Positions 24,329-47,003 of a stretch of DNA of 64,000 bases are shown one piece after another. Position 1 is the first letter of the stretch; each line of letters begins with the position of its first letter. The DNA comes from an uncultured Clostridia bacterium (GTDB lineage: Bacteria > Bacillota > Clostridia > Oscillospirales > Acutalibacteraceae): contig CANRHD010000009.1 in NCBI GenBank assembly GCA_947630285.1, positions 1 to 64,000 of the forward strand, written 5' to 3'. The notes under the pieces are model-generated. The model was given only the letters and a program-made list of their open reading frames with translations, had not been told where the DNA came from and searched no databases. The position numbers and the translations under genes are program-made.

Positions 24329-24796
24329 ATGAAAATTAAAATTAATCTTAAACCTCTGCTTTTGTTCGTCCTCGGCGCTCTGCTTGTGGGTGTGCTGAGC
24401 TCGTGGGCAGGGGGAACGATGACGGGCTTTGACAATATCAATACTCCGTCGTTTGTACCGCCGGCTTCGGTTTTCCCGATAGTATGGACGGTGCTGTTTA
24501 TACTTATGGGCATTTCGGCCTATATTGTGTTCGAGGCGAAAGACCCTTTGAGTAAAAACGCATTGATATACTATTATATACAGCTTGCGGTAAACTTCCT
24601 TTGGCCGGTGCTGTTTTTCAGACTGCACGCCTTTTTGGCGGCGTTTTTGTGGCTGTTGTTGCTTTTGGTACTCGTAATCATAATGGATATTAAGTTCTTT
24701 AAAATAAATAAGCTTTCCGCCTATCTGCAAATTCCCTATATTTTGTGGCTTTTGTTTGCAGGCGTTTTGAATTTCTCGGTCTATCTTATAAACTGA
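24329..24796 (+). CDS. tspO: TspO/MBR family membrane protein
   Basis: A 155-residue, five-helix membrane protein of the translocator/benzodiazepine-receptor family, which binds tetrapyrroles and related ligands. Family features are the N-terminal helix, WAGGTMTGFDNINTPSFVPP, PIVWTVLFILMGISAYIV, IQLAVNFLWPVLFF and the C-terminal LWLLFAGVLNFSVYLIN. I chose the ATG at 24329 because AAGGGGTG is five to six bases upstream. Function here (stress or porphyrin handling) is not evident from neighbours. Confidence 0.9.
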   Translation: MKIKINLKPLLLFVLGALLVGVLSSWAGGTMTGFDNINTPSFVPPASVFPIVWTVLFILMGISAYIVFEAKDPLSKNALIYYYIQLAVNFLWPVLFFRLHAFLAAFLWLLLLLVLVIIMDIKFFKINKLSAYLQIPYILWLLFAGVLNFSVYLIN

Positions 24797-24827
24797 CTGA
24801 AAATAAAGGGCAGGGATTGTTTTTGCA

Positions 24828-25157
24828 TTAAATATAAAATATGCGAATTTCCCTGCCTGTTTTATTGCACCTGTCTATTACATATTTTGTGCCGTGGGAG
24901 CCTCCGTCCCAAAAGGCGTAGACAATATCCGCATAGTCTATAATTTTATTGTTCCTCTTTAACGGCGCAGACCTGCCGTATTTACTGTATTCGGGCAGAA
25001 ATTCCGTAAATTTAATGCCGTTCATGGCGGCAAAATCCCTGGCGCATTTGTCAACGCCGTTTGCGCCGCCGGAAACTATTTCGTCAACATTGTCGGGTAA
25101 AAAGTCGCCCAAATTTTTAATGCAAATATCTCTTGAACCTATGACAGCAACTTTCAT
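24828..25157 (-). CDS. Small SLOG-superfamily protein
   Basis: A 109-residue Rossmann-like protein starting KVAVIGSRDI and carrying the nucleotide-binding motif VSGGANGVDKCARDFA, then DYADIVYAFWDGGSHGTKYVI. This is the pattern of stand-alone SLOG/DprA-like proteins (the DUF2493-type group), thought to sense nucleotide-derived ligands. Specific function unknown. It converges on tspO, and its 3' end overlaps an inverted repeat (AGGGCAGGGA with TCCCTGCCT) that can terminate both genes. Confidence 0.8.
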   Translation of the reverse strand: MKVAVIGSRDICIKNLGDFLPDNVDEIVSGGANGVDKCARDFAAMNGIKFTEFLPEYSKYGRSAPLKRNNKIIDYADIVYAFWDGGSHGTKYVIDRCNKTGREIRIFYI

Positions 25158-25265
25158 ATTCTCTCCTTTAGATACAAATTAGATATATTTTATGTTTATT
25201 AGTTTAATTGTAACACAATTTGAACATAAAATAAATCCATAATAAAACTAAAGGGGAGTAAAATT

Positions 25266-25442
25266 ATGGCTATTAAGAGTTTGTCAATTCGCATTGAGCA
25301 GGAAATGCTGGATAAGCTTCATATCGTGGCGGATTATGAGGGGCGCTCGGCAAACAGTCAGATTTTAATTTTAATCCGTGACTGCATAAAGGAGTACGAA
25401 AAGGAAAACGGAGAGATAATTTTGTCGAAAGGCAAAGGGTAA
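25266..25442 (+). CDS. Ribbon-helix-helix (Arc-like) small DNA-binding protein
   Basis: A 58-residue frame with AAGGGGAG before its ATG. The sequence IKSLSIRIEQEMLDKLHIVA then YEGRSANSQILILIRDCIKE is a compact ribbon-helix-helix fold: a beta strand of alternating residues, two helices, and NSQI at the turn. Such proteins are repressors or antitoxins. No toxin-like partner follows. It lies between the SLOG gene and the G-tract promoter of the LRR-dockerin gene; whether it regulates either is not visible. Confidence 0.8.
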   Translation: MAIKSLSIRIEQEMLDKLHIVADYEGRSANSQILILIRDCIKEYEKENGEIILSKGKG

Positions 25443-25500
25443 CGGAAATTCGGGACGGGAAACCGCAAGAACCAAAACAGCAAAATATATCATTTAACTT

Positions 25501-25534
25501 CGCCGTGTTTAAGCTGAATGCGGCGTTGTTTTTT
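25501..25534 (+). terminator. Terminator after the ribbon-helix-helix gene
   Basis: CGCCG and CGGCG pair around a 15-base loop, followed by TTGTTTTTT. It insulates the downstream G-tract promoter. Confidence 0.6.
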
Positions 25535-25550
25535 GCCTTAAAATAAAAGC

Positions 25551-25579
25551 TTGACAAAATGCGGGGGGGGGGGTAGAAT
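25551..25579 (+). promoter_or_regulatory. Promoter with an 11-G homopolymer in the spacer
   Basis: A consensus -35 TTGACA (25551-25556) and a near-consensus -10 TAGAAT (25574-25579) are separated by exactly 17 bases: six mixed bases followed by 11 consecutive G (25563-25573). Slippage in the tract would change spacer length and promoter strength, as in known phase-variable bacterial promoters. It is about 90 bases upstream of the LRR-dockerin gene. Confidence 0.75.
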
Positions 25580-25668
25580 ATTATTGTTATTTTTGTAATA
25601 TGAGGTAAAAAGAATAATGATTACCTTAGTTGCAGGAAAATAAACAAATAACAGAAAGCAGGTAGGAA

Positions 25669-27210
25669 ATGATTAAATCATTTAACAGACAGCGAAAAAT
25701 AGTATCATTGCTGTTGTCACTTGCAATGATACTGACCGCTCTGCCCCTGGCAGGGTTCACAGCATTTGCGGAGGACGAATTATACAAAAGCGAAGGCTTT
25801 GAGTACAGAATACTTGAAGACGGCTCGGCGGAGATTACAAGCTATATAAAAAACGCAGAAACATATGATATTCCCTCGGAGCTTGACGGACACACGGTTA
25901 CAAGCATAGGAGATTATTCATTTACATATTGCGACAGCTTAAAAAATGTAATAATGCCGGACAGCGTTACAAATATAGGCGTTTGGGCGTTTGCACATTG
26001 CCCCGGCTTAGCAGATATAACAATACCGGACAAGGTTACAAGCATAGGTAATTATGCGTTTTCCCATTGTTCCGGTTTGACTGATGTAATAATACCGGAA
26101 AGCGTTACAGATATAGGTTACGCCGCATTTGAATGGTGTGAGAACTTAGCAAGCGTAACAATCGGCGACAGCGTAACAAGCATAGGTAATTATGCGTTTT
26201 CATATTGCAGTAACTTAACGAGCATAACAATACCCGACAGCGTTACAGATCTGGGTGATTATGCATTTGCGCAGTGCACCGGCTTAACAAGCGTAACAAT
26301 CGGTGACGGCGTTACAAGCATAGGAGATTGGGCATTTGAAAATTGCGGCAGTTTAACGGAAATAAATGTTGGCGCAAACAATAATTACTATTCCTCGCAG
26401 GAAGGCGTTTTATTTGATAAAAATATAACAGAGCTTATACTGTATCCGGTAGGGAACAAAAGAACATCATATGATATTCCCAACGGCGTTACAAGCATAG
26501 GCGGAAATATATTTTCAAATTGCGACAGCTTAAAAAATGTAACAATTCCCGAAAGCGTTGAATATATACATGATTTTGCATTTGAAAATTGCAACGGCTT
26601 GACAGAAATAAAAGTTGACGCAAACAATAAAAACTATGCCTCACAGGACGGAGTATTGTTTAATAAGAATAAAACAGAGCTTATACAATATCCGGTAGGA
26701 AATGAAAGAAAAACATATGAAATTCCCGACAGCGTTACACTCATATGCGAAAATTCATTTAAAAATTGTAACAGCCTAACCGACATATATATATTAAACA
26801 AGGATTGTTTTATTGTTTCATCAGAATATTTTTATCCGATACCGACTGAAATCACAGTCCACGGTTATGCAGGTTCAACCGCCGAGGAATATGCAAAAGA
26901 ATACGGCAACAATTTCGTTGTCATAGAGGACGAACCCGTGCCCCCGGACGACCCGACAAAGCCGGATAAGCCGGTAACGCCCGATGAGTCTATTATAATC
27001 GGCGATGTTGACGGAAATAAGAAAATTACAATTACCGACGCTAAGTGGATTTTACAAAATACCGTAAAATCAAGAACCCTTACCGAGAAGCAGGCAAAGG
27101 CCGCCGACCTCAACAAGGACGGTAAAATTACAATCGTTGACGCAAAATGGGTGCTTCAAATAGTCGTAGGCCTTAGGGACGCCCAAACTCTCAAACCGAT
27201 TAAGAAATAA
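25669..27210 (+). CDS. Secreted BspA-like leucine-rich-repeat protein with C-terminal type I dockerin
   Basis: 513 residues. An N-terminal signal peptide (basic start, LLLSLAMILTALPLAGFTAFA) is followed by about a dozen LRR_5/BspA repeats (pattern SVTSIGDYAFxxCxxLTSVT). A Pro/Asp linker (PPDDPTKPDKPVTPDE) leads to a dockerin with two calcium-binding repeats, DVDGNKKITITDAKWIL and DLNKDGKITIVDAKWVL. BspA-type repeats mediate adhesion in other bacteria; the dockerin would attach the protein to a cohesin scaffold, not an enzyme. Expression is probably switched by the G-tract promoter. GGTAGGAA precedes the ATG. Confidence 0.92.
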   Translation: MIKSFNRQRKIVSLLLSLAMILTALPLAGFTAFAEDELYKSEGFEYRILEDGSAEITSYIKNAETYDIPSELDGHTVTSIGDYSFTYCDSLKNVIMPDSVTNIGVWAFAHCPGLADITIPDKVTSIGNYAFSHCSGLTDVIIPESVTDIGYAAFEWCENLASVTIGDSVTSIGNYAFSYCSNLTSITIPDSVTDLGDYAFAQCTGLTSVTIGDGVTSIGDWAFENCGSLTEINVGANNNYYSSQEGVLFDKNITELILYPVGNKRTSYDIPNGVTSIGGNIFSNCDSLKNVTIPESVEYIHDFAFENCNGLTEIKVDANNKNYASQDGVLFNKNKTELIQYPVGNERKTYEIPDSVTLICENSFKNCNSLTDIYILNKDCFIVSSEYFYPIPTEITVHGYAGSTAEEYAKEYGNNFVVIEDEPVPPDDPTKPDKPVTPDESIIIGDVDGNKKITITDAKWILQNTVKSRTLTEKQAKAADLNKDGKITIVDAKWVLQIVVGLRDAQTLKPIKK

Positions 27211-27271
27211 ATTTTAAAGCAAAAAGTTCTTAAAAAGCATAAACAAAGCAATAACAAAAAAACAAAACAAT

Positions 27272-27316
27272 AAAAAGCGGTTATACCGAGGTGGAACTTG
27301 GTACAACCGCTTTTTT
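27272..27316 (+). terminator. Terminator of the LRR-dockerin gene
   Basis: AAAAAGCGGTT pairs with AACCGCTTTTTT around a loop that itself contains a small hairpin. Confidence 0.8.
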
Positions 27317-27342
27317 GTCTTTGATTGATTTTAAAGGTAAGA

Positions 27343-27441
27343 GAATTTCGCAGTCTGCGGACTGCGACGAGAAATTCCCTCGGCTCACCGAAAATTTGGG
27401 CTAAGCCCGACCGCCGCTCGCCTTAAGCGAAGCTCTGTACC
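27343..27441 (-). repeat. Small hairpin-rich repeat fragment
   Basis: It contains TCGCAGTCTGCGGACTGCGA, the reverse complement of the central hairpin of the interspersed elements at 19.6, 21.4 and 35.7 kb, bracketed by GAATTTC and GAAATTC. The remaining sequence (GGGCTAAGCCC, GCTCGCCTTAAGCGAAGC) forms more short hairpins and does not match the other copies. Perhaps a related or degraded element downstream of the ABC genes. Confidence 0.45.
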
Positions 27442-27462
27442 TTTTTTCTCGGTATTTTCAAC

Positions 27463-29262
27463 TCAGCTTTTATATTTTTCCGCCTGAAGCGTAAACATCT
27501 TTGCGTATGTTCCGCCGAGCTCCATAAGCTCTTCGTGCGAGCCTGCCTCTATTATCTCACCGTTTTCCATAACATATATTTTATCGGCTATCACCGTTGT
27601 GGAAAGCCTGTGGGAGATAAATATTACCGTCTTGTGCTTTGCCGCCTCAAGCATGGTTTGGTTGAGCTTGTATTCGGCTATCGGGTCAAGGTTTGCCGAC
27701 GGCTCGTCAAGGATTACATACGGGCATTTTTTGTAGAACGCCCTTGCGATAGCCACTTTCTGAGCCTCACCGCCCGAAAGCATAACGCCGTTTTCGTCAA
27801 ATTCCCTTAAAATTTCCGTATCCGTGCCGTATTTCAATTCCTTTGTAAATCCGCTGCTGTTCAACGCCTCCATAACGGCGGCGCTGTCAAAATCTTTGTC
27901 AAGCGCAACATTCTCGCCTATCGAACACGAAAAGGTCTGAAAATCCTGGAACACCGCCGCAAACCTGTCCCTGTGAGAAGCCACGGTTACATCTTTAATG
28001 TTTTCGCCGCCTATCAGAATTTCACCCTCGGTTGCGTCGTACAGCCTCAGCAGTAAATTGGTCAGCGTCGTTTTGCCGGCCCCGTTATAGCCTACAAGCG
28101 CAATTTTCTCATACGGCTTTATTTCAAGATTGATATTGTTGAGAGTCGGCTTGTCGTTGCCGGGATAAGTAAACGACATATTCTTAATCGAAATCGTTTT
28201 CGGCTCGGCGCACTCCGCCTTTCCCCTGCCGTCCTTGATTTTATAGTCGGCTTTCAGGAACTCTCTGTATTTTTCAATCATCTTTGCCCTTTCCGACATT
28301 ACCGCCCTTGCCCACACGGTAAGGAAATTGATTGACAGCGCTATGGAGTAAGCTCCGTTAAAGGTTGCCACAAAATCGCCGGGCGACAGCGTTTTTTTGA
28401 CAAGCACGCAGTAGCCCAAGTACAGCGGCAGAATAAGCATAAAGCCCATGCCCTGAACGCCGACCTGCTGAATACCGTAGCACAGAGAGATTTTTTTCCA
28501 ATACCTTTTCTGGTTGTCGATTACATCGTCTGCGGCGTCGTTATACCTGTCCATAAGCAGGGGAGTTATGCCGTTCATTCTGACCTCTTTGGCATAGTCC
28601 TGCAAGTAGAAAATCCGTTGGAAATAGTCGCTCCTGCGGTGGTATCTCGTGTTGTCGATCCTCCTGCCCATCTGAAGCTCAGCTATCTTTGAGCTCAAAG
28701 GCAGGAATATTAATATCGAAGCGAGAATTATTACAAGGCAAACGGGGTCAACCGCAAGTATAACCGAAGCTATTGCGCCGAGCGATATTAAGTTTGCCAC
28801 ATAGTTCTGCACAAGCCCCAGCAGACCCTGAATATTATCCGACGAGGACTCAATGGTTAAAATAAAGTTGTTGTAAAAGTCGGGGTCGTCGTAGCTTTCA
28901 AGGTCAAGCAGATGCGCCTTTTCGTACAGCTTTGAATTGAGCTTGAAATACAGCCTTTCACGCTCCATATTCCAGTAAAATTCCCTGTATAGAATTGTGA
29001 TAAGGTTTCCGAAGATGATTACCGCCGCAATGATTAACACGGCGTAATAAATCCTCTCTAAATTTTTACCCTCAACAACCGTGTCGATTATGTATTTTAC
29101 GCCTATTACGGAAACAAGCCTCGGCGGCAGCGTTCGGAAAATTCCCGACATTATATCGCCTATTACAAGCCCCGGGGAAAGACGGAACATAAGCCACAGA
29201 AAGTACATAATGTTGCTGAACATCGAGTGTTCGTCTTTGTTTTTCTTATTTAATTTAAGCAT
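27463..29262 (-). CDS. ABC exporter, fused membrane and ATPase domains (second subunit)
   Basis: A 599-residue half-transporter: six membrane helices in residues about 20-320, then an ATPase domain with Walker A GYNGAGKTTL (about 389), signature LSGGEAQKVAIARA (about 495) and Walker B YVILDEPSANLDP. It overlaps the preceding ABC gene by eight bases, so the two products almost certainly form a heterodimer. It has no N-terminal C39 peptidase domain. The substrate may be the small peptide encoded upstream or a xenobiotic. Confidence 0.93.
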   Translation of the reverse strand: MLKLNKKNKDEHSMFSNIMYFLWLMFRLSPGLVIGDIMSGIFRTLPPRLVSVIGVKYIIDTVVEGKNLERIYYAVLIIAAVIIFGNLITILYREFYWNMERERLYFKLNSKLYEKAHLLDLESYDDPDFYNNFILTIESSSDNIQGLLGLVQNYVANLISLGAIASVILAVDPVCLVIILASILIFLPLSSKIAELQMGRRIDNTRYHRRSDYFQRIFYLQDYAKEVRMNGITPLLMDRYNDAADDVIDNQKRYWKKISLCYGIQQVGVQGMGFMLILPLYLGYCVLVKKTLSPGDFVATFNGAYSIALSINFLTVWARAVMSERAKMIEKYREFLKADYKIKDGRGKAECAEPKTISIKNMSFTYPGNDKPTLNNINLEIKPYEKIALVGYNGAGKTTLTNLLLRLYDATEGEILIGGENIKDVTVASHRDRFAAVFQDFQTFSCSIGENVALDKDFDSAAVMEALNSSGFTKELKYGTDTEILREFDENGVMLSGGEAQKVAIARAFYKKCPYVILDEPSANLDPIAEYKLNQTMLEAAKHKTVIFISHRLSTTVIADKIYVMENGEIIEAGSHEELMELGGTYAKMFTLQAEKYKS

Positions 29263-36728: not shown

Positions 36729-38915
36729 TCATAATATATCAGACAAAACTGCCCAATCATCACTCTCTATATCATCAGAGTAATGCTCCATACAGATGCA
36801 AAGTTCATCGGTTGTTGCATCGTTACGGACAATACCGCCTTTTAAGCCGTGTTCGTCAAGGTATGCCTTTAACACGCCGAATTTCTTTGGCGTATAAAGA
36901 TCTATGTCTTGGCTATTGCCGCTGCGGTCAAAGCCGCCCTTTGTTTCGATGATCCAGATTTCGCCGTTTACTGAAATAAGATAATCGGGGTAGAACAGCT
37001 TTTGCCTATTGGAATTGTCTGTGTAAACGATGGACAAGTATTCGTTGCCCTTGTCCCCGTTTTTATACCACCATTCCACGCTGTCGGAACGCTCACAGAA
37101 TTTTTCAAATTTAACCTCTGGCGTAGATCGCGGAGCGGCAGATGATAAGTAATTCTGATATACATTTTTCTTCATCACAAGCTGTGTTTTCGCCTCACCG
37201 TTGTAGGTAAACAAGCAAGACTGCGGAATACGGAATTCATAATAGGATTTTCTCGGCATATCAAGCTGTATCTGAGCCAATTCATAAGCCATAGCTTCAC
37301 GCACCAAATGGCGAAGTCGGTCTGCATTGTTGATGACAAAAGCATATACGCTTCTCGGCTCCAAAGAAAGAATTTTGCGTGTGTAGGTAAAATTCTTATC
37401 AAACAGCTTGCGGATAATCGTATTCATATAGGAATACTCCATACCGATTTCCAAGCCAATTTTACCGATAGTACGATGATATTCACGTCCGTGTTTATGC
37501 GTACTTAACGATTCAACGACCTTGATATCATTCAGATCCGTAGATGAAAAATCCAGCGTTGCGGCTTCCCCTGAAAAAGTGTGTTTCACAATATTCTCAT
37601 TTAATTCAAAGCCGGCGGTCTGCAAACGGGTACGATTTTCTGTTTTATTCGCTGTGACGCCGTATTCTTTTTCTGCGTAAGAGGCGATTGCTTGTAATGC
37701 TTTTTGCGGATTACGTGTGGATGTCACCATCGTTCTCTGCTCGCCTGTAAGTGTTATGTTTTTATACTCGTTTTTAAGGAAAATGGTACAGGCGTTTAAT
37801 GCACTTTTATCGAGAGCCATTTTTACGCCTGCGGTAAATTTTTCATCGAAGGTGTAAAGATAGCAACTGTCGAGCAAGTCACTTTCATAATGTTTTGCTT
37901 CGGGCATACGGCGGATACGGCCTATCGTTTGTATCTCAAAGGTTTCGTCCATATTGTCACGGAGTTTCACAAGAATATGCGCTCTCGGACAGTCCCAACC
38001 CGTTGCAACCGCTTGTTTTATGATAACCGCAGAGACGGAGGCATTAGGCTCTTCAATACCCTCCAAGTTTTCGTGCCGGTCGGAGAGCCAAACCGCAAGT
38101 TGACCGTTTTCATAGGTCAACCCCTGCGTTTCAAGATAGCGTTCAACGCCGTCCTGCAAGATTTCCGATTTATTCGGGATTTGAATTACAATCAACGGGT
38201 TTATATCGGTATTACGCTGTAAAAACTCTGCACGGAGCTCCCGTTGCTTTTGGAGAGCCTTTTCAAGAAGGAACGCCGTTTGATCTTCCGTTTCCACCGT
38301 CTGCGGAAAGTCTTGATTAATAACAAGCAGTTTTTTAATAAGCCCGGCAGTAATAACATCTTCTTCGGGGATTTCTATGATTTCCGCCTTTGCTATGCCC
38401 TTCGGCGTTGCGGAACAGCGAATGATCTTTTCCGTATGAAAATACTGTATGATCTCGTCAGCTTTTATCGTGTTGTTCTGATGGCTTTCATCAACGATAA
38501 TCACAAAGCGTAAGTCGTCATTCAAGGCGTTCCGGATATGCTCTAAAAAATTCGTGCGTTCACTGTCTTTCAGAGCATTGTTGCCCTTTTTGGTGAGCTT
38601 TTCCCAGTTAATGAAGCAACTGTCGTTTTCTTCAAAACCCGAGGTCATAACATCGGAAAGCAGTTTTGTCTGTGAAGTGTGGATATATTCATCCATTTTT
38701 GCCTTGCTCTGTTCTTCAAGGTTGCCCTTGCCCGGCGTGAGCCAAACAAAAACGGTTTTCGGGAAAGACTGTATGTACTGATGCATAAAATAAGTTAAAA
38801 TAATTGTCTTTCCGCTTCCCGTCGGGCTTTTGAGTATAATATCACGGGTGGTGGGCTTGTCCATCGCTTCAAATAGTGATTTCACTGCGTTTAATTGAAA
38901 TTCTTTAAGTATCAT
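36729..38915 (-). CDS. res: Type III restriction endonuclease, Res subunit
   Basis: A 728-residue DEAD-type superfamily 2 helicase-nuclease: Walker A SPTGSGKT (about 30-37), VDESHQNN, CSATPKG, the helicase motif TIGRIRRMPEA, and a C-terminal PD-(D/E)xK-like nuclease segment with YPDYLISVNGEIWIIETKGG. It would cut unmethylated DNA together with Mod after ATP-dependent communication between two sites. Its start overlaps the stop of the small membrane protein gene by one base. Base composition and codon use are more AT-rich than flanking housekeeping genes, suggesting acquisition. Confidence 0.93.
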   Translation of the reverse strand: MILKEFQLNAVKSLFEAMDKPTTRDIILKSPTGSGKTIILTYFMHQYIQSFPKTVFVWLTPGKGNLEEQSKAKMDEYIHTSQTKLLSDVMTSGFEENDSCFINWEKLTKKGNNALKDSERTNFLEHIRNALNDDLRFVIIVDESHQNNTIKADEIIQYFHTEKIIRCSATPKGIAKAEIIEIPEEDVITAGLIKKLLVINQDFPQTVETEDQTAFLLEKALQKQRELRAEFLQRNTDINPLIVIQIPNKSEILQDGVERYLETQGLTYENGQLAVWLSDRHENLEGIEEPNASVSAVIIKQAVATGWDCPRAHILVKLRDNMDETFEIQTIGRIRRMPEAKHYESDLLDSCYLYTFDEKFTAGVKMALDKSALNACTIFLKNEYKNITLTGEQRTMVTSTRNPQKALQAIASYAEKEYGVTANKTENRTRLQTAGFELNENIVKHTFSGEAATLDFSSTDLNDIKVVESLSTHKHGREYHRTIGKIGLEIGMEYSYMNTIIRKLFDKNFTYTRKILSLEPRSVYAFVINNADRLRHLVREAMAYELAQIQLDMPRKSYYEFRIPQSCLFTYNGEAKTQLVMKKNVYQNYLSSAAPRSTPEVKFEKFCERSDSVEWWYKNGDKGNEYLSIVYTDNSNRQKLFYPDYLISVNGEIWIIETKGGFDRSGNSQDIDLYTPKKFGVLKAYLDEHGLKGGIVRNDATTDELCICMEHYSDDIESDDWAVLSDIL

Positions 38916-39295
38916 TATCTCTTCCCGCCTCTTTTATTGGATGCACTTCTTATTCCTTTCGCAAACTCTGCTTGGACTTCAGGCATTTTCATGGCCTCGC
39001 CTACAACATTATTAATGAGGTTTTGATTTAGAGCGTTTTCACTTTCGATTTTCGCAAGTTCAAGTTTGTGCTTATGTTCAAGTTCCAACTTTTCTAATTC
39101 CTGTTGGTGTTGCTGGGTCAATGAGTCAATATCTACCTTATGCTGTTCCATTAGTCGGTCAATATCATGCTTATTTTGTGTTTCAAGGAGCTTGATTTGT
39201 GTCGATGAATTTTTTCGTGCAACCAAATATGAGACAACCCCTGTAATAACTGCAGGTATGCACGAAATCAATAAGGTTTGTATAAATTCTGTCAT
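38915..39295 (-). CDS. Small membrane-anchored coiled-coil protein inside a type III R-M operon
   Basis: 126 residues: an N-terminal membrane helix (TLLISCIPAVITGVVSYLVA), then a long charged helix (DIDRLMEQHKVDIDSLTQQH; LEKLELEHKHKLELAKIESE) that should form a coiled coil, and a basic tail. It begins five bases after the mod stop and overlaps res by one base, so it is part of the operon. I do not recognise the family. A structural or regulatory role, or an added defence function at the membrane, are possibilities only. Confidence 0.75.
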   Translation of the reverse strand: MTEFIQTLLISCIPAVITGVVSYLVARKNSSTQIKLLETQNKHDIDRLMEQHKVDIDSLTQQHQQELEKLELEHKHKLELAKIESENALNQNLINNVVGEAMKMPEVQAEFAKGIRSASNKRGGKR

Positions 39296-39300
39296 TGTTT

Positions 39301-40926
39301 TTACCTTTCCTGTAAATCCTTGTAATAGTAATCGGGGATAATACTTATTTCTATTCCTTGCGCCTTCAAGGCTTTTTCCTGCGCCTGCGTTGGTAAAAGG
39401 TCATGACCCATATACAGCTTTTTGCACTTGGAAAATGCATCTGTATTTGACACAAAGGCTTCAAGCTCCTCCTCGGTCAGCACAATACCGATTTCGGCGT
39501 TGCCTATGAAATTTATGCCGTTTTCAAGCTCCACAAGCTCACGAATATGCTTCAAGAGTTCATCGGCATATTCATAGTACATTTGCTCGTCTATCGGAAC
39601 ATAGTCTACCTTGTAATATTTAAGGCTTGCTTCGTAATTTTCTTTATCAATCACACGCTTGATGCGCTCGTATGTGACATCACGGCAAATATTGTTTTCA
39701 TTATTTGTGCAGAGGATGAATTTGCGATTTCCACTGTCTTTTGCATTTAGCTTCATTACTGCGTGTCCTGTTGTGCCTGAGCCTGCAAAAAAATCAAGTA
39801 CACAGCCGTTTCTATTTCCAATTTCAAGACATCTCTTAATTAGGTCTGTGGGTTTTGGATTATCAAAAGTATTAGACTTTCCCATAATTGCTTCTAACTC
39901 ACCACTTCCGGCGGTGTTTTGTGGCAAATCATTCCACAGAGTATCAATTCTCTTGCCCTCGTTTTCTCTTTCATTCCAATAGTCTTTTACTCTTAAACTT
40001 TTTCCACTCAAGACTAAGCGGTTATCGTTTTCCAAACCCTTAATTTTCTCGTATTTCATGCGCCAGCCCTTTGGTGGACATGGCCATATCTTGCCCATAT
40101 TATCAACATAGTCATATGTTGTTTCAGGACCGGGATCACGAGGTTTTTGCAGACTTACTGTCTGATACTTTCCCCTACCGTCATTGTCATCAAATTTGAA
40201 TAACTTTTGTGAGGCTTCGGAAAGAGGTTTATATGCGGAATTAAGTGTGTATGCACTACCTTTGGAATATAGCAAAACATATTCTGTATTTACCGTAAAT
40301 TTACCTTTTTCGGTTTTAGCACTTGAATTGCGTTGCCATATGAAAAGATTGATAAAAAAATCTGCACCGAACACTTCATCACAAAGCAATTTTAGTGCCG
40401 CTACCTCATTGTCATCAATAGAAATGAAAACCAATCCTGTTTCAGTCAAAAGGTGTTTAGCCACCTCTAAACGAACTTTCATAAAAGAAACCCACTTACT
40501 GTGCTTGAATGTGTCTTCATTTACGACAAAATCGTCATCGTAAACGAAGTCAGTTTTTCCACGATTATACGGCGGATCTATGTAGATGAGGTCGATTTTA
40601 CCTTTGTGCGTTTTTTCAAGCAATTTAAGAGCGGCAAGGTTGTCCCCCTCGATGAGAAAATTCATTTGTCCGCCGTTGTCGATGAACAGGTCTTTCTCTT
40701 CGGTCAGTACTGGCGTATGGGTATCAAGTACATCGTCGATTTCCTCACGGTGTTCCTCAAAAACCAGTCCGTATTTCTTGCCGTTCACATCTTTCTCAAG
40801 GTCGGAAAGATAAGAGAGCAGATTACCTGTATTCTCGTCCTGCGGTGCAGCAGAAATAAAGGCTCGTATTTCTTTGATTTTATTTAACAAGTCCTCACGC
40901 TTTTGTTTTGAGATGTTTGTGCTCAT
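39301..40926 (-). CDS. mod: Type III DNA methyltransferase, Mod subunit
   Basis: A 541-residue beta-class adenine methyltransferase. Motif IV is IDPPYNRGKTDFVYDDD, and motif I, LDFFAGSGTTGHAVM, comes later in the chain, the order expected for this class. The N-terminal and C-terminal parts would bind Res and carry target recognition. It methylates one strand of an asymmetric site and provides specificity for Res. It overlaps the upstream small gene by 32 bases. Confidence 0.93.
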   Translation of the reverse strand: MSTNISKQKREDLLNKIKEIRAFISAAPQDENTGNLLSYLSDLEKDVNGKKYGLVFEEHREEIDDVLDTHTPVLTEEKDLFIDNGGQMNFLIEGDNLAALKLLEKTHKGKIDLIYIDPPYNRGKTDFVYDDDFVVNEDTFKHSKWVSFMKVRLEVAKHLLTETGLVFISIDDNEVAALKLLCDEVFGADFFINLFIWQRNSSAKTEKGKFTVNTEYVLLYSKGSAYTLNSAYKPLSEASQKLFKFDDNDGRGKYQTVSLQKPRDPGPETTYDYVDNMGKIWPCPPKGWRMKYEKIKGLENDNRLVLSGKSLRVKDYWNERENEGKRIDTLWNDLPQNTAGSGELEAIMGKSNTFDNPKPTDLIKRCLEIGNRNGCVLDFFAGSGTTGHAVMKLNAKDSGNRKFILCTNNENNICRDVTYERIKRVIDKENYEASLKYYKVDYVPIDEQMYYEYADELLKHIRELVELENGINFIGNAEIGIVLTEEELEAFVSNTDAFSKCKKLYMGHDLLPTQAQEKALKAQGIEISIIPDYYYKDLQER

Positions 40927-42076: not shown

Positions 42077-42571
42077 ATGGAAGAAAAGCTAAGTAAAAAG
42101 GAACAGGATTTTTGCAGATACTATGTCCATTTGCGTTCGCCCCGTGAGGCCGCCGCACTTGCAGGTTGGCTGTTGCTTCCCGAAAGGTGCGGAGAAAAGC
42201 TGCTTGAAAAAAAGAAAATCAGGGACGAGATCTCAAGGCTTGAAGCTCAGCAGGACGGCTTCAGGCTTGCCAAAGCCGGCTTCAGGCGCCTTGCGTTCGG
42301 CTCGGTGGCAGACGCAATAAGACTGCTCGACGGCGAAAGGGACAACATCGACGGCCTCGATTTGTTTATGGTTTCCGATATTAAAATCCCCAAGGGCGGA
42401 GGAATGGAAATTAAATTCTTTGACAGGCAGAAGGCTCTTGAAAGCCTTGCGTCAATGGAAAACCTCGCGGATAACGGCTCAAGTCTGCCGTTTTACAACG
42501 CATTGGAAAAATCTGCTTCCCTTGTTTCGGGAACGCCCGAAAACGGTTCGCTTGAAGAGGCTGATTTATGA
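42077..42571 (+). CDS. terS: Phage terminase small subunit
   Basis: 164 residues with an N-terminal helix-turn-helix typical of TerS (LSKKEQDFCRYYVHLRSPRE then AAALAGW), followed by EISRLEAQ and a central segment (FGSVADAIRLL). It recognises the packaging site and recruits the large subunit. GAAAGGAG precedes the ATG, and its last codons overlap the next gene as ATGA. First gene of the packaging and head cassette. Confidence 0.87.
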   Translation: MEEKLSKKEQDFCRYYVHLRSPREAAALAGWLLLPERCGEKLLEKKKIRDEISRLEAQQDGFRLAKAGFRRLAFGSVADAIRLLDGERDNIDGLDLFMVSDIKIPKGGGMEIKFFDRQKALESLASMENLADNGSSLPFYNALEKSASLVSGTPENGSLEEADL

Positions 42572-43833
42572 GAATTGACAGCTTTAAGAGCTTTTCAAAA
42601 AAACAGTTGACGCTTTTGACATGGTGGTGCAAAAACAGCCCTTTCAATTCCCACGACGCAATTATCTGCGACGGAGCGGTACGAAGCGGCAAAACGCTTT
42701 GTATGTTTATTTCATTTGTATCATGGGCGTTTTACGGGTTTAACGACGGCTCGTTCGCCCTCTGCGGAAAAACGGTGACAAGCCTGAGGAGAAATTTGGT
42801 TACGCCTATTTTGCCCCTGTTACGGGATCTGGGATTTAAGTGCGAGGAGAAAATCTCCAAAAATTATATAGAAATTTCCCGTGACGGCAGGCTCAACAGA
42901 TTTTATCTTTTCGGCGGCAGGGACGAATCCTCCGCATCGCTTATTCAGGGTATGACGCTGTGCGGCGTTATGCTTGACGAGGTTGCGCTTATGCCCCGTT
43001 CGTTTTGCGAACAGGCCATTGCCCGATGCTCGGTTGAAGGCTCCAAAATCTGGTTCAACTGCAATCCCGAAAATCCTTCGCACTGGTTCTATCGAGAGTG
43101 GATAAAAAAGAAAAACGAGAAAAACTGTCTTTATCTTCATTTTGTTATGGAGGACAACCCGTCGCTTTCAAAGGAGATTATAAAGCGGTACAAAAGCCTG
43201 TATTCCGGCGCTTTTTACGAACGCTTTGTGCTGGGCAAATGGGTTGCCGCCGACGGACTTGTATATCCGTTCTTTAACGAGGGCTTTGTATATGATGTCC
43301 CGGCGGATTTTGACAGCTTTGCGGTTTCGTGCGACTACGGAACGGTCAATCCCACCTCTATGGGACTTTGGGGCAGAAACGGCGGCGTATGGTACAGAAT
43401 TGACGAGTTTTACCACGATTCAAGGCGAAAAGGCTTTCAGATGACCGATGAAGAATATTACAATTCACTCGCTTCTTTAATCGGCGGCAGAAAAACGGAA
43501 TTCGTTGTTGTAGACCCGTCGGCCGCTTCTTTTATCGAATGTATCAAACGCCACGGCAAATACAATGTCGTTAAGGCGGAAAACGATGTGCTTGCCGGTA
43601 TTCGCAGAACCTCCGACGCACTTAAACGGGGGGAAATTAAAATTTGCAAAACCTGTCCCGATATTATAAGGGAATTTAACCTTTACAGATGGGACGAGAG
43701 CGCAAGATACGATGCTCCGAAAAAGGAGAACGACCACGCAATGGACGATATGAGATATTTTGCGGTGACTGCGTTAAAAGAGAAAAAAGATGATTTTTTT
43801 GCGGTCAGTTTTTCAAGAGAAAGGGGGTTTTAA
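42568..43833 (+). CDS. terL: Phage terminase large subunit (PBSX type)
   Basis: 421 residues. The N-terminal ATPase has Walker A-like DGAVRSGKTLC and a Walker B region MLDEVALMPRSF. The C-terminal RNase H-like nuclease has SCDYGTVNPTSMGLW, FVVVDPSAASFI and NDHAMDDMRYFA, with acidic residues expected at the metal site. It drives DNA packaging into proheads. The gene appears intact, which argues against simple decay. Confidence 0.92.
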   Translation: MRIDSFKSFSKKQLTLLTWWCKNSPFNSHDAIICDGAVRSGKTLCMFISFVSWAFYGFNDGSFALCGKTVTSLRRNLVTPILPLLRDLGFKCEEKISKNYIEISRDGRLNRFYLFGGRDESSASLIQGMTLCGVMLDEVALMPRSFCEQAIARCSVEGSKIWFNCNPENPSHWFYREWIKKKNEKNCLYLHFVMEDNPSLSKEIIKRYKSLYSGAFYERFVLGKWVAADGLVYPFFNEGFVYDVPADFDSFAVSCDYGTVNPTSMGLWGRNGGVWYRIDEFYHDSRRKGFQMTDEEYYNSLASLIGGRKTEFVVVDPSAASFIECIKRHGKYNVVKAENDVLAGIRRTSDALKRGEIKICKTCPDIIREFNLYRWDESARYDAPKKENDHAMDDMRYFAVTALKEKKDDFFAVSFSRERGF

Positions 43834-43834
43834 T

Positions 43835-45010
43835 CTGGCTATTTTTACTAAAAAGAAAAAGCAGAGCGTTTCCGTGCCTGTTCTGGCTTCGGGAACCGGG
43901 TTTTCAAGACACCCGTTTTACGCAATAGAGAATTATATGCCGGCGGAATGTGTGGAATATGATTTGTACGACAGCCTGCGTGAGGCCATTCCGATTATCG
44001 ACGCCTCAATTTATAAGATTGTAAGGCTGACCGGCGGATTTCGCATTAAAACGGAGGAAAAAAGATTTGACAATATCATCAATGAATTTGTAAAAGATGT
44101 CAGCACGGACGCAGGTCAATGTTCATTGCAGACCTTTATTGACAGCTATTTTGAGCAACTGCTCACTTACGGCGTTGCCGCAGGAGAAATGCTTACGGAT
44201 TCGGACGGTAAAGTAAAATACCTTTACAATGCTTCTTGCAGAAATATTGTCCTCAGACGCAACGAAAATAATTTTAACGAGATTGATGTCTGCTCAACCG
44301 ACGGTGTAACTCAAACGCCTGCCGTAAACCAGGACAGGATAATATATTCCACTCTTAACGCAAAGCCCGGCGAGCTTGTGGGCTGTTCCGTGCTCAAGGG
44401 ACTGCCTTTTGTGAGCGATGTGCTTTTGAAGATATACAACGCCATCGGTCAGAATTGGGACAGGGTGGGGAATGTCAGGTTCGCCGTTACCTATAAACCG
44501 AACGACGACTCGGGCTCAAAGTCTTACGCCAAGGAGAGGGCGCTTGTAATAGCCGAAGAATGGGGCAAGGCGATGAAGAGCCGAGAGGTCCGTGATTTTA
44601 TAGCGGTCGGCGATGTCGATATAAAGGTCATAGGTGCGGACAATCAGATACTCGACAGCGAAGTACCCGTCAGGCAGATGCTTGAACAGATAGTGGCAAA
44701 GCTCTCCCTGCCTCCGTTTATGCTCGGAATATCGTGGTCAACCACCGAAAGAATGTCGCAGCAGCAGGCGGACACCCTTACATCGGAGCTTGAGTTTTAC
44801 AGGAGGATACTCACTCCCGTAATTAAAAAAATTTGCAAAACGCATCTGCGTGCATACGGATACACAAAGACCGTAAATGTAGTTTGGGACGGCATCACAT
44901 TAAAGGATATGCTTGACGAGGCGAACGCCCGTTACCTTAATGCCAAGGCAGATGAAATTTACGATAAAATAGGCGTGGAAAAGGAGGAAATTCATGAACA
45001 AAAGCTATGA
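43835..45010 (+). CDS. Phage portal protein
   Basis: About 391 residues of an SPP1/HK97-like portal: ASIYKIVRLTGGFRIKTEE, the central DRIIYSTLNAKPGELVGCS and VPVRQMLEQIVAKLSLPPFM are typical. The best start is a CTG at 43835 (CTG GCT ATT TTT) seven bases after AAAGGGGG; the only upstream ATG in frame (43790) has no ribosome site and overlaps terL by 44 bases. The portal would form the dodecameric DNA channel of the capsid vertex. Confidence 0.85.
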   Translation: MAIFTKKKKQSVSVPVLASGTGFSRHPFYAIENYMPAECVEYDLYDSLREAIPIIDASIYKIVRLTGGFRIKTEEKRFDNIINEFVKDVSTDAGQCSLQTFIDSYFEQLLTYGVAAGEMLTDSDGKVKYLYNASCRNIVLRRNENNFNEIDVCSTDGVTQTPAVNQDRIIYSTLNAKPGELVGCSVLKGLPFVSDVLLKIYNAIGQNWDRVGNVRFAVTYKPNDDSGSKSYAKERALVIAEEWGKAMKSREVRDFIAVGDVDIKVIGADNQILDSEVPVRQMLEQIVAKLSLPPFMLGISWSTTERMSQQQADTLTSELEFYRRILTPVIKKICKTHLRAYGYTKTVNVVWDGITLKDMLDEANARYLNAKADEIYDKIGVEKEEIHEQKL

Positions 45011-45971
45011 TTTACAGCCAAATTCGGAGGCTGAAAGCATAACGGAGGACGACCTGAAGCTTATCAACGCTTACTCACGAAAGCGGTTAAAGGCCGATGA
45101 TGTTTTTGTCTTTTCCGCCGTGCTTTGCGACAACGAAATCGACCGTGACTTTGAAAGGTTTTCGGTTGAGTCCCTCAAAACTCTGGCGGAGCTTTTTGTC
45201 GGCAAAACGGCCATAAAAAACCATTCGATGAATTCGGAGGATCAGTCCGCAAGAACCTTTAAGACGGAGCTTATTACAGACGAAAACAGGAAAAACAGTC
45301 TCGGCGAACCCTATGTATATTTAAAGGCGTACAGCTATATTCCGAGAATAAAAAAGTACGAGAGCCTCATAGAGGAAATCGAGTCGGGAATAAAAAAAGA
45401 AGTCAGCATAAGCTGCTGCGTCTCAAAAAGCATTTGCTCCGTTTGCAAAACGGATTTAAGGCAGTCCGCCTGCCACCACAAGAGGGGAAAAAGCTACAAC
45501 GGGAAGCTGTGCTACTGCGAGCTTAACGACCCTCTTGACGCATACGAATGGTCTTTTGTCGCAGTGCCGGCACAGAAAAACGCAGGCGTTGTAAAAAGCT
45601 TTAAGGATAAGGAGGGTAATAAAAAGTTGAGTAATATTGTAAAGTCGCTCGGAGAAGCCGAGGGCGAAATTTTATTGAGCGACGGCGAGGTAAAGGCGCT
45701 CAGGGATTATATCAAATCGCTTGAGACACTGGCAGACGAGGGGAGAGAATACAGAAAAGCGCTTGAGAGCGAAACGGTAAGATTTTTTGCGCTCACCTCT
45801 CCCGAAATTTCAAGCGACTGTACCCGAAGCATATGCAAATCGCTTTCAACCAAGGATTTAAAGGAGCTTAACGGGGCGCTCAGGGAAAAACAGCAAAAGC
45901 TTTCCGCTCCCCAGCTTGCACAGGCCAAAAAGCCGAGTGAAAATTCGGCAAATTCACAGTTCAGATTTTAA
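44994..45971 (+). CDS. Putative prohead protease fused to scaffold region
   Basis: 325 residues lying between portal and major capsid genes, where head maturation proteases are found. The N-terminal part (about 1-205) has FVFSAVLCDNEIDRDFERFS and KNHSMNSEDQSARTF, plus an unusual Cys/His cluster (CCVSKSICSVCK, CHHKRGK, CYCEL) that could bind zinc. The C-terminal 114 residues are charged and helical like a scaffold, and can be translated separately from an internal start. It overlaps the portal gene by 17 bases. Confidence 0.65.
   Translation: MNKSYDLQPNSEAESITEDDLKLINAYSRKRLKADDVFVFSAVLCDNEIDRDFERFSVESLKTLAELFVGKTAIKNHSMNSEDQSARTFKTELITDENRKNSLGEPYVYLKAYSYIPRIKKYESLIEEIESGIKKEVSISCCVSKSICSVCKTDLRQSACHHKRGKSYNGKLCYCELNDPLDAYEWSFVAVPAQKNAGVVKSFKDKEGNKKLSNIVKSLGEAEGEILLSDGEVKALRDYIKSLETLADEGREYRKALESETVRFFALTSPEISSDCTRSICKSLSTKDLKELNGALREKQQKLSAPQLAQAKKPSENSANSQFRF
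45627..45971 (+). CDS. Nested capsid scaffold protein (internal start in the protease gene)
   Basis: An AAGGAGG site at about 45608-45617 lies ten bases before an in-frame TTG (45627), giving a 114-residue product LSNIVKSLGEAEGEILLSDG through ANSQFRF. Nested scaffold genes in the 3' part of head protease genes are known from lambda-like phages. The product is helical and Lys/Glu-rich, as scaffolds are. Confidence 0.55.
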   Translation: MSNIVKSLGEAEGEILLSDGEVKALRDYIKSLETLADEGREYRKALESETVRFFALTSPEISSDCTRSICKSLSTKDLKELNGALREKQQKLSAPQLAQAKKPSENSANSQFRF

Positions 45972-45995
45972 TTTGTAAAAGAAAGGATTAATAAT

Positions 45996-47003
45996 ATGGC
46001 TATTTATGAAAATATTAAACTTGATAAAGGACTTTATTCAACGGGCAGGGGCTTTACAAAGGAACTTGAAGCCGTAGATCCGTCCGAAAATTACAAGGGC
46101 ACTTCGCTTGAGGGCCTTGACGCTTTTGAAAGACAGTTAAAGCGTTTTGACATCAAAATAAGCGGCAGCGGCAGCGATGTAATCGAAAAGTTCTTTAAGA
46201 CTGCGGACTCTGCGGCACTTTTCCCCGAATATGTGGCGAGGGCTGTCAGAAAGGGCAAAGAGGAGGCGGATATACTTCCCTTTATAATCGCCTCAAAAAC
46301 AAATATAAACGGCCTTGATTACAGAAGCATAGCCTCCGTGCCTACCGATGACGACAAGGCTTTGAAGGGCGTTGCCGAGGGCGAGGCTATTCCCGAAACG
46401 GAAATTAAGGTGCAGTCAAATCTCGTTAAGCTTAAAAAGCACGGCAGAATGCTTGTGGCTTCTTACGAGGCCATCAGATTTCAGCGCCTTGACCTTTTCA
46501 CGGTTATGCTCAGGCAGATAGGCGCATATATTGCAAAATCACAACTGAGCGAAGCCGTTAAGACTATTGTTTCCGGCGACGGCAACAACAATGCGGCCTC
46601 AAAAACCAATACGGCGTCCTCCGGCGAACTTACATACGCCGATCTTGTTTCTTTCTGGAACAGCTTTGACCCGTATGAACTCAATACCATAGTTGCTTCG
46701 CCCGATGTAGCGGCAAAAATCCTTGAAATGAGCGAGATGCGTGATGCGGCGGCAGGGCTCAATTTCCATGCTACGGGCAATGTGATAACTCCCCTCGGCG
46801 CAAAGCTTTTGAAGAGCTCGTCCGTTACGGAGGGTTCTCTTATCGGGCTTGATAAAAACTGCGCTCTTGAGATGGTTCAGGCAGGCGGTATACTCACGGA
46901 ATACGACAAGCTTATCGACCGCCAGCTTGAGCGCGCGGCAATAACGGAGATTTCCGGCTTTGCCAAGATTATTACTGACGCTTCAAAGGTACTCGAAGTC
47001 TAA
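45996..47003 (+). CDS. Major capsid protein, HK97-like
   Basis: 335 residues beginning AIYENIKLDKGLYSTGRGFT, with a central region FPEYVARAVRKGKEEADILP, LVKLKKHGRMLVASYEAIRF (E-loop/spine region) and ending in a beta-rich A domain (YDKLIDRQLERAAITEISGF). This matches the phage capsid family of siphovirus type. AAAGGA precedes the ATG. It is complete and follows the scaffold region by 24 bases. Confidence 0.87.
   Translation: MAIYENIKLDKGLYSTGRGFTKELEAVDPSENYKGTSLEGLDAFERQLKRFDIKISGSGSDVIEKFFKTADSAALFPEYVARAVRKGKEEADILPFIIASKTNINGLDYRSIASVPTDDDKALKGVAEGEAIPETEIKVQSNLVKLKKHGRMLVASYEAIRFQRLDLFTVMLRQIGAYIAKSQLSEAVKTIVSGDGNNNAASKTNTASSGELTYADLVSFWNSFDPYELNTIVASPDVAAKILEMSEMRDAAAGLNFHATGNVITPLGAKLLKSSSVTEGSLIGLDKNCALEMVQAGGILTEYDKLIDRQLERAAITEISGFAKIITDASKVLEV

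Follow-up and report, generated by a model that had tools for sequence, protein, structure and literature searches.

We estimate a probability of roughly 0.8 that the promoter at positions 25551–25579 of the window (the whole stretch of 64,000 nucleotides that was analyzed) is a slipped-strand phase-variable promoter, a reading drawn from the sequence of a 17-bp spacer that carries 11 consecutive G residues in front of a gene encoding an LRR-dockerin protein. In its favor, a paralogous promoter of the same genome and five promoters of a same-genus species (G001) retain both boxes but differ in tract and spacer. Similar promoters recur across the order with a constrained spacing, and the products encoded behind promoters of this kind are mostly predicted to be secreted.

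Architecture of the Promoter and of Its Gene

The distance between the −35 and −10 boxes sets the engagement of RNA polymerase, and 17 bp is the accepted optimum. A TTGACA box, a 17-bp spacer with G11 and a TAGAAT box had been described in the initial annotation, and both direct reading and a promoter scan agreed exactly with this description (Table 1). The promoter matched 11 of 12 consensus positions and was the top of 15 promoter-like matches in a scan of positions 24600–27500. A homopolymer tract thus lies between the −35 and −10 boxes, as in a promoter-spacer switch, and the 17-bp optimum is reached at some tract length, namely G11 in the window, with relatives that span 15 to 21 bp; all tract lengths given here are assembly consensus values. 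A reading-frame switch of the type found at coding-tract contingency loci was ruled out, as no ORF of at least 100 aa covers positions 25551–25579 on either strand.

Table 1. Features of the promoter locus and the single cohesin match of the genome (positions are those of the window unless a contig is given).
Feature	Position	Strand	Basis
Terminator-like hairpin and T-rich tail (stem 25501–25525, 11 pairs)	25501–25534	+	Hairpin search; upstream of the promoter
−35 box TTGACA	25551–25556	+	Direct reading, promoter scan
Spacer of 17 bp, AAATGC + G11	25557–25573	+	Direct reading, promoter scan
G11 tract, non-template strand, proposed slippage site	25563–25573	+	Longest G/C run of the window
−10 box TAGAAT	25574–25579	+	Direct reading, promoter scan
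5' leader; AGGTAGG at 25660–25666 as possible ribosome-binding site (by eye)	25580–25668	+	
ORF of 513 aa, BspA-type LRR_5 and C-terminal type I dockerin	25669–27210	+	Pfam profile search
Imperfect inverted repeat then T run, possible terminator	27273–27315	+	By eye; absent from the hairpin-search list
Cohesin match	contig 10, 37100–37411		Profile search of the genome

The −10 box is separated from the start codon of the LRR-dockerin gene by 89 bp. The upstream terminator-like hairpin, whose sequence is kept in the orthologous locus of G001 (contig 7), would keep read-through transcription from reaching the G-tract promoter. With this hairpin upstream and an inverted repeat followed by a T run after the gene, the LRR-dockerin gene appears to form an insulated unit on its own.

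The 513-aa product matched LRR_5 (PF13306; E 1.3e-72, 242 bits versus a cut-off of 27.7) and Dockerin_1 (PF00404; E 8.5e-10, 39.1 bits versus a cut-off of 22.9), the dockerin being encoded at 27001–27153, and a signal-peptide-like N-terminal stretch was recognized by eye. These features agree with the earlier view of a secreted, BspA-like protein with a dockerin downstream of the promoter. Its LRR repeats match solved BspA-type LRR structures, such as 4gt6 and TpLRR 6mlx, and an NCBIfam search returned sub-cut-off matches only, such as the LRR adhesin HupY. This domain content would be consistent with a role in adhesion or antigenic variation. Elsewhere in the window, a block of phage-like ORFs (terminase-, portal- and capsid-like by eye) occupies positions 42077–47003, and restriction-type ORFs at 36729–40926 adjoin it.

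Thirty-one dockerin matches were found in the genome, and one cohesin match (26.6 bits versus a cut-off of 24.1). The cohesin protein, of about 205 residues, begins with a signal-peptide-like stretch, and its hydrophobic C-terminus resembles a membrane anchor and is followed by KKKNED. It is perhaps the single docking point of the cell, onto which the LRR-dockerin proteins would dock.

Placement of the G Tract

Runs of G or C in the window number 16314, 4216, 963, 200, 35 and 2 for lengths 1 to 6, respectively, with a single further run of 11; since the spectrum otherwise stops at 6, G11 stands alone as an outlier. Dinucleotide shuffling of the window produced 0.43 G9 matches on average, and the three matches observed were reached in 3 of 100 shuffles, so that under this model the position of the run is more remarkable than its length. 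Five G/C runs of at least 9 occur in the 2.03 Mb genome, two of which (in the window and on contig 12) lie exactly between TTGACA and TAGAAT. The chance of TTGACA and TANAAT flanking a given run at spacings of 15 to 21 was calculated by hand as about 7 × 4^-11 = 2e-6. It is the placement of the G run, and not its length alone, that exceeds chance.

Of the three other long runs, two are found within ORFs of a polysaccharide-type cluster and one in a histidine-kinase-like ORF, at its 3' end. At the G9 run of contig 4 (23367–23375), the halves of an acyltransferase-like domain (PF01757) are in different frames, and the G11 run of the same contig (20444–20454) stands right before a sugar-transfer ATP-grasp ORF (PF14397) of the polysaccharide-type cluster; both look like coding-frame contingency loci. 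The G10 run of contig 21 (21685–21694) occupies the final codons of a GHKL-type histidine-kinase ORF (PF14501) and is followed by TAGAAC, with no TTGACA before it.

A Promoter Family in Two Species of the Genus

When 98 genomes were searched by blastn with a 151-bp query from the window promoter (E ≤ 0.001), matches were obtained in two, the genome itself and G001. The paralogous promoter on contig 12 (G9, spacer 15) precedes a second LRR-dockerin gene and shares the leader of the window promoter with 93% identity over a 131-base match. As this was the only other strong place for the query in the genome, and its context is common to the sister species, a dispersed mobile repeat was rejected. 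Five promoters were found in G001, on contig 3 (G9, spacer 18), contig 6 (G11, spacer 21), contig 7 (G12, spacer 21), contig 8 (G10, spacer 18) and contig 16 (G10, spacer 19). In the alignment of the seven promoters, TTGACAAAAT is invariant. The −10 box is TAAAAT in one promoter and TAGAAT in the other six, whereas differences are seen in the tract and in the few bases just before it. Genes encoding LRR_5 and Dockerin_1 follow six of the seven, and the seventh is followed by an ORF for a VanY-type carboxypeptidase. The LRR-dockerin gene of the window, which had been considered on its own in the initial annotation, does have a switch-like promoter, but as one of a family with two members here and five in the sister species.

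Synteny identified the ortholog of the window locus on G001 contig 7, where TspO-like and SLOG-like genes precede the locus and an ABC transporter follows it, and that of the contig 12 locus on G001 contig 16, where a CarB-like ORF follows. The spacer changes from 17 to 21 and from 15 to 19 in these pairs with the boxes kept; thus, tract and spacer have changed in both.

At the level of the genus, the pattern was detected in 3 of 39 genomes (8 matches; none in the reversed control). In the third of these genomes (G025), it consists of a G8 site with a spacer of 17, and an obvious secreted gene was not found after this site. LRR relatives at E ≤ 1e-40 are present in 21 of the 39 genomes, compared with three that bear the pattern, which indicates that many LRR genes do without the switch; in the genome under study, a G-tract promoter was found at 2 of 18 LRR_5 frames.

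Recurrence in the Family, the Order and Other Bacteria

Across 398 genomes of the family, a scan for TTGACA, a gap, at least seven G and TANAAT gave 18 matches in 11 genomes, and none in the reversed control. A scan of 394 genomes of the order, for TTGACA, at least eight G and TANAAT with any spacer from 10 to 40 allowed, gave 29 matches in 13 genomes, again with none in the reversed control. All 29 spacers fell within 15–21 (15, three; 16, one; 17, six; 18, six; 19, nine; 20, two; 21, two), for which the chance under uniform spacing from 10 to 40 is about 2e-19, or about 4e-9 when one match per genome is counted (n = 13), paralogs not being independent. A poly-C counterpart of this promoter class was rejected, as no C-run version was found in 197 genomes, in which the G version gave nine matches in seven genomes.

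The search was widened to 84,980 genomes, one per species, with at least nine G and spacers of 11 to 25, and at least 118 stretches from many phyla were recovered. Many of the matches listed are animal-gut metagenome bins, and isolates among them belong to Streptococcus, Treponema, Streptobacillus, Helicobacter, Blautia, Schaedlerella, Mediterraneibacter, Microcystis and Hydrogenoanaerobacterium. Among the matches listed, the spacer measures 15–20 at 114 of 119 distinct sites, the Treponema putidum site, with a spacer of 12, being one of the five outside this range. A spacer of 19 is the commonest at these 119 listed sites (33), followed by 16 (24) and 18 (21), and 17 is scarce (9), a shortage that was seen post hoc in a distribution also shaped by the G9 floor of the pattern. 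The state that was sequenced thus frequently departs from the expected optimum, which would mean either that low states are common among those sequenced or that some hosts have a different optimum. The coupling of tract length to the remaining spacer length is weak (r −0.30 at 165 sites; −0.16 without tracts longer than 13). Several such promoters may occur in one genome, with four in H. saccharovorans An564 (G675) and seven in G733.

Products Encoded Behind Such Promoters

The survey of products comprised 167 sites, at least one of which (contig 12) was counted twice and whose wide-scan part consists of the matches listed; a first ORF was assigned by rule at 121 sites and not at the other 46. 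Secretion was called by a home-made rule (secreted or lipoprotein), which errs: it labels as secreted the L173 product, which resembles a cytoplasmic glucanotransferase. By this rule, 100 of the 121 first downstream ORFs were predicted to be secreted or lipoproteins, versus 120 of 412 nearby genes in the wide-scan loci (Fisher p 2e-26), and the same held for the wide-scan sites alone among the matches listed (71 of 87; p 8e-20).

Products with both LRR_5 and Dockerin_1 were found outside the genus, at two sites of a genome from another genus of the family (G180; G15 with spacer 24, and G10 with spacer 18). Dockerin products lacking LRR occur in G113 and in G281, in the latter with a GDSL lipase and a dockerin bit score barely over the cut-off. 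In another family of the order, an LRR_5 product lies behind such a promoter (G733); several products of this genome have dockerin-like C-termini, none of which reached Dockerin_1 at E 0.001. Three similar secreted proteins are encoded behind G9, G10 and G11 in H. saccharovorans An564, whose fourth site has G10. The downstream ORFs of G204 (two sites) and G275 had no signal peptide by eye, and no fitting ORF was found close behind the promoter at L290, L302, L303 and L304.

We lean towards the view that promoters with a G tract in the spacer form a widespread class of surface-gene switch that has evolved repeatedly in commensal, mostly animal-associated bacteria (among them Clostridia, Bacilli, Saccharibacteria, spirochaetes and streptococci) and that, in Clostridia, also governs dockerin-bearing proteins.

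Proposed Mechanism

Random gain or loss of G in the tract would interconvert spacer states. The state of the window (17 bp) is predicted to be high, spacers of 16 or 18 to be intermediate, and those of 15, 19 and beyond to be low; by analogy, the contig 12 state (15) would be low and the G001 states (18–21) intermediate to low. By analogy with studied systems, we also infer slippage within the species and an effect of tract length on transcription. In N. meningitidis porA, expression is high with 11G, and the amount of surface protein is about 2-fold lower with 10G and about 13-fold lower with 9G, according to passages of PMC3639595; the spacer optimum is given as 17 nt in a passage of PMC7864442. 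As this response is graded, the "on and off" of the initial annotation is better read as high, medium and low. The interpretation given there is supported in part: its core proposal of a slippage-prone spacer for a surface LRR-dockerin gene finds good backing in the differing tracts of paralog and orthologs, the tight spacers and the bias towards predicted secreted products.

The LRR-dockerin protein would probably be held at the cell surface through dockerin-cohesin docking, and the tract would then alter the choice of LRR proteins on display. In Clostridia with dockerin-bearing proteins under such control, the proteins on show would be a random selection, made anew for every cell, of those that can dock on its cohesin. 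The benefit would presumably lie in the variation of adhesion or of antigens.

Tract variants were also sought in IMG/VR. Two contigs (L217 and L219) carry a G12 spacer, and the near-identical L289 has at this place a G-rich stretch of 15 bases interrupted by two T (identity to L217 of 99.9% on the upstream side and 99.85% on the downstream side, each over 2 kb). As an instance of tract-length variation, this difference is suggestive only. The ORF behind the tract of these phage-like contigs has no signal peptide and resembles an HNH-type endonuclease by eye. Free-gap scans of IMG/VR around two other G-tract sites gave no tract variant, and the five contigs obtained with the window promoter were rejected as one unrelated fixed sequence with no G tract.

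Alternative Explanations

The locus could be an ordinary promoter whose spacer is G-rich by happenstance, with a rigid tract that does not slip at a relevant rate. We consider this unlikely. The same-genus pair G281/G183 does share an identical G9 tract and a spacer of 18, as this explanation would have it, but tract lengths differ in the paralog and the orthologs with both boxes kept, and the bias towards predicted secreted products has no reason under such a view. Homopolymers of similar size, moreover, slip in porA, tprL and B. breve, as described in passages of PMC3639595, PMC7864442 and PMC9187656.

It is quite improbable that the tract acts through its own structure or through binding of a regulator, for instance as a G-quadruplex or a site for a CRP-like protein, with spacing being secondary. 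The restriction of the pattern to G runs in 197 genomes would fit such an action, as would the CRP homolog linked to a poly-G effect at Treponema tprE/G/J in a passage of PMC7864442. However, the total spacing is held within 15–21 in every order-wide match, and tp0126 performs best at 17 nt in the part of PMC7864442 that describes it. A false poly-G arising from sequencing or assembly seems hardly credible here. Two-colour sequencers are known to produce spurious poly-G, and metagenome bins make up most of the wide-scan matches listed; nevertheless, isolate genomes such as those of Treponema bryantii, Streptococcus orisratti and Schaedlerella arabinosiphila match as well, and conserved boxes at a constrained spacing bound the run. 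Slipped-strand phase variation of the promoter is the reading that we retain.

Comparison with Known Systems

To our knowledge, slippage in a promoter spacer as a means of phase variation has been described chiefly in a small number of mucosal pathogens. The precedents of porA and tp0126 mean that the mechanism is already known; what is new here is the host group (Clostridia) and the kind of cargo (dockerin proteins), with no report in the literature searched. In the PMC full-text matches for dockerin and phase variation, an unrelated co-mention was all that appeared, and among the PMC matches listed, as far as titles and abstract starts tell, there was no report of spacer G tracts in Clostridia; the homopolymeric tracts in the pertinent part of PMC2831843 are in coding genes. 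Most likely to surprise is how widely the class occurs. If the proposal is true, clonal commensal populations hedge their surface make-up by spacer-slippage promoters, mixed tract lengths are predicted in ordinary metagenome reads, and dockerin display is under stochastic control, for which no report was found in the literature searched.

The comparison with Neisseria made in the initial annotation is apt. Like the window promoter, porA carries its poly-G tract between the two boxes and serves a surface protein, and its high state has 11G, the count also present in the window (passages of PMC3639595). However, porA encodes a porin of a Gram-negative pathogen and its slippage and expression effect are experimental, whereas the window promoter is known from its sequence. 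T. pallidum tp0126 is an equally close precedent, with its poly-G between the −35 and −10 boxes and top transcription at a 17-nt spacer, although it encodes an OmpW homolog of a spirochaete, without LRR or dockerin (passages of PMC7864442). Slippage between G10 and G11 in a surface system of a gut commensal is described for B. breve, but the tracts studied there are within pilus genes and affect the reading frame; other G tracts in promoter spacers are mentioned without detail (passages of PMC9187656). For Candidatus Mycoplasma girerdii, switching of BspA-like LRR surface proteins has been inferred from repeats of variable length (passages of PMC5476646), but these are mainly dinucleotides that act by frameshift, and the word dockerin is absent from the paper (count 0).
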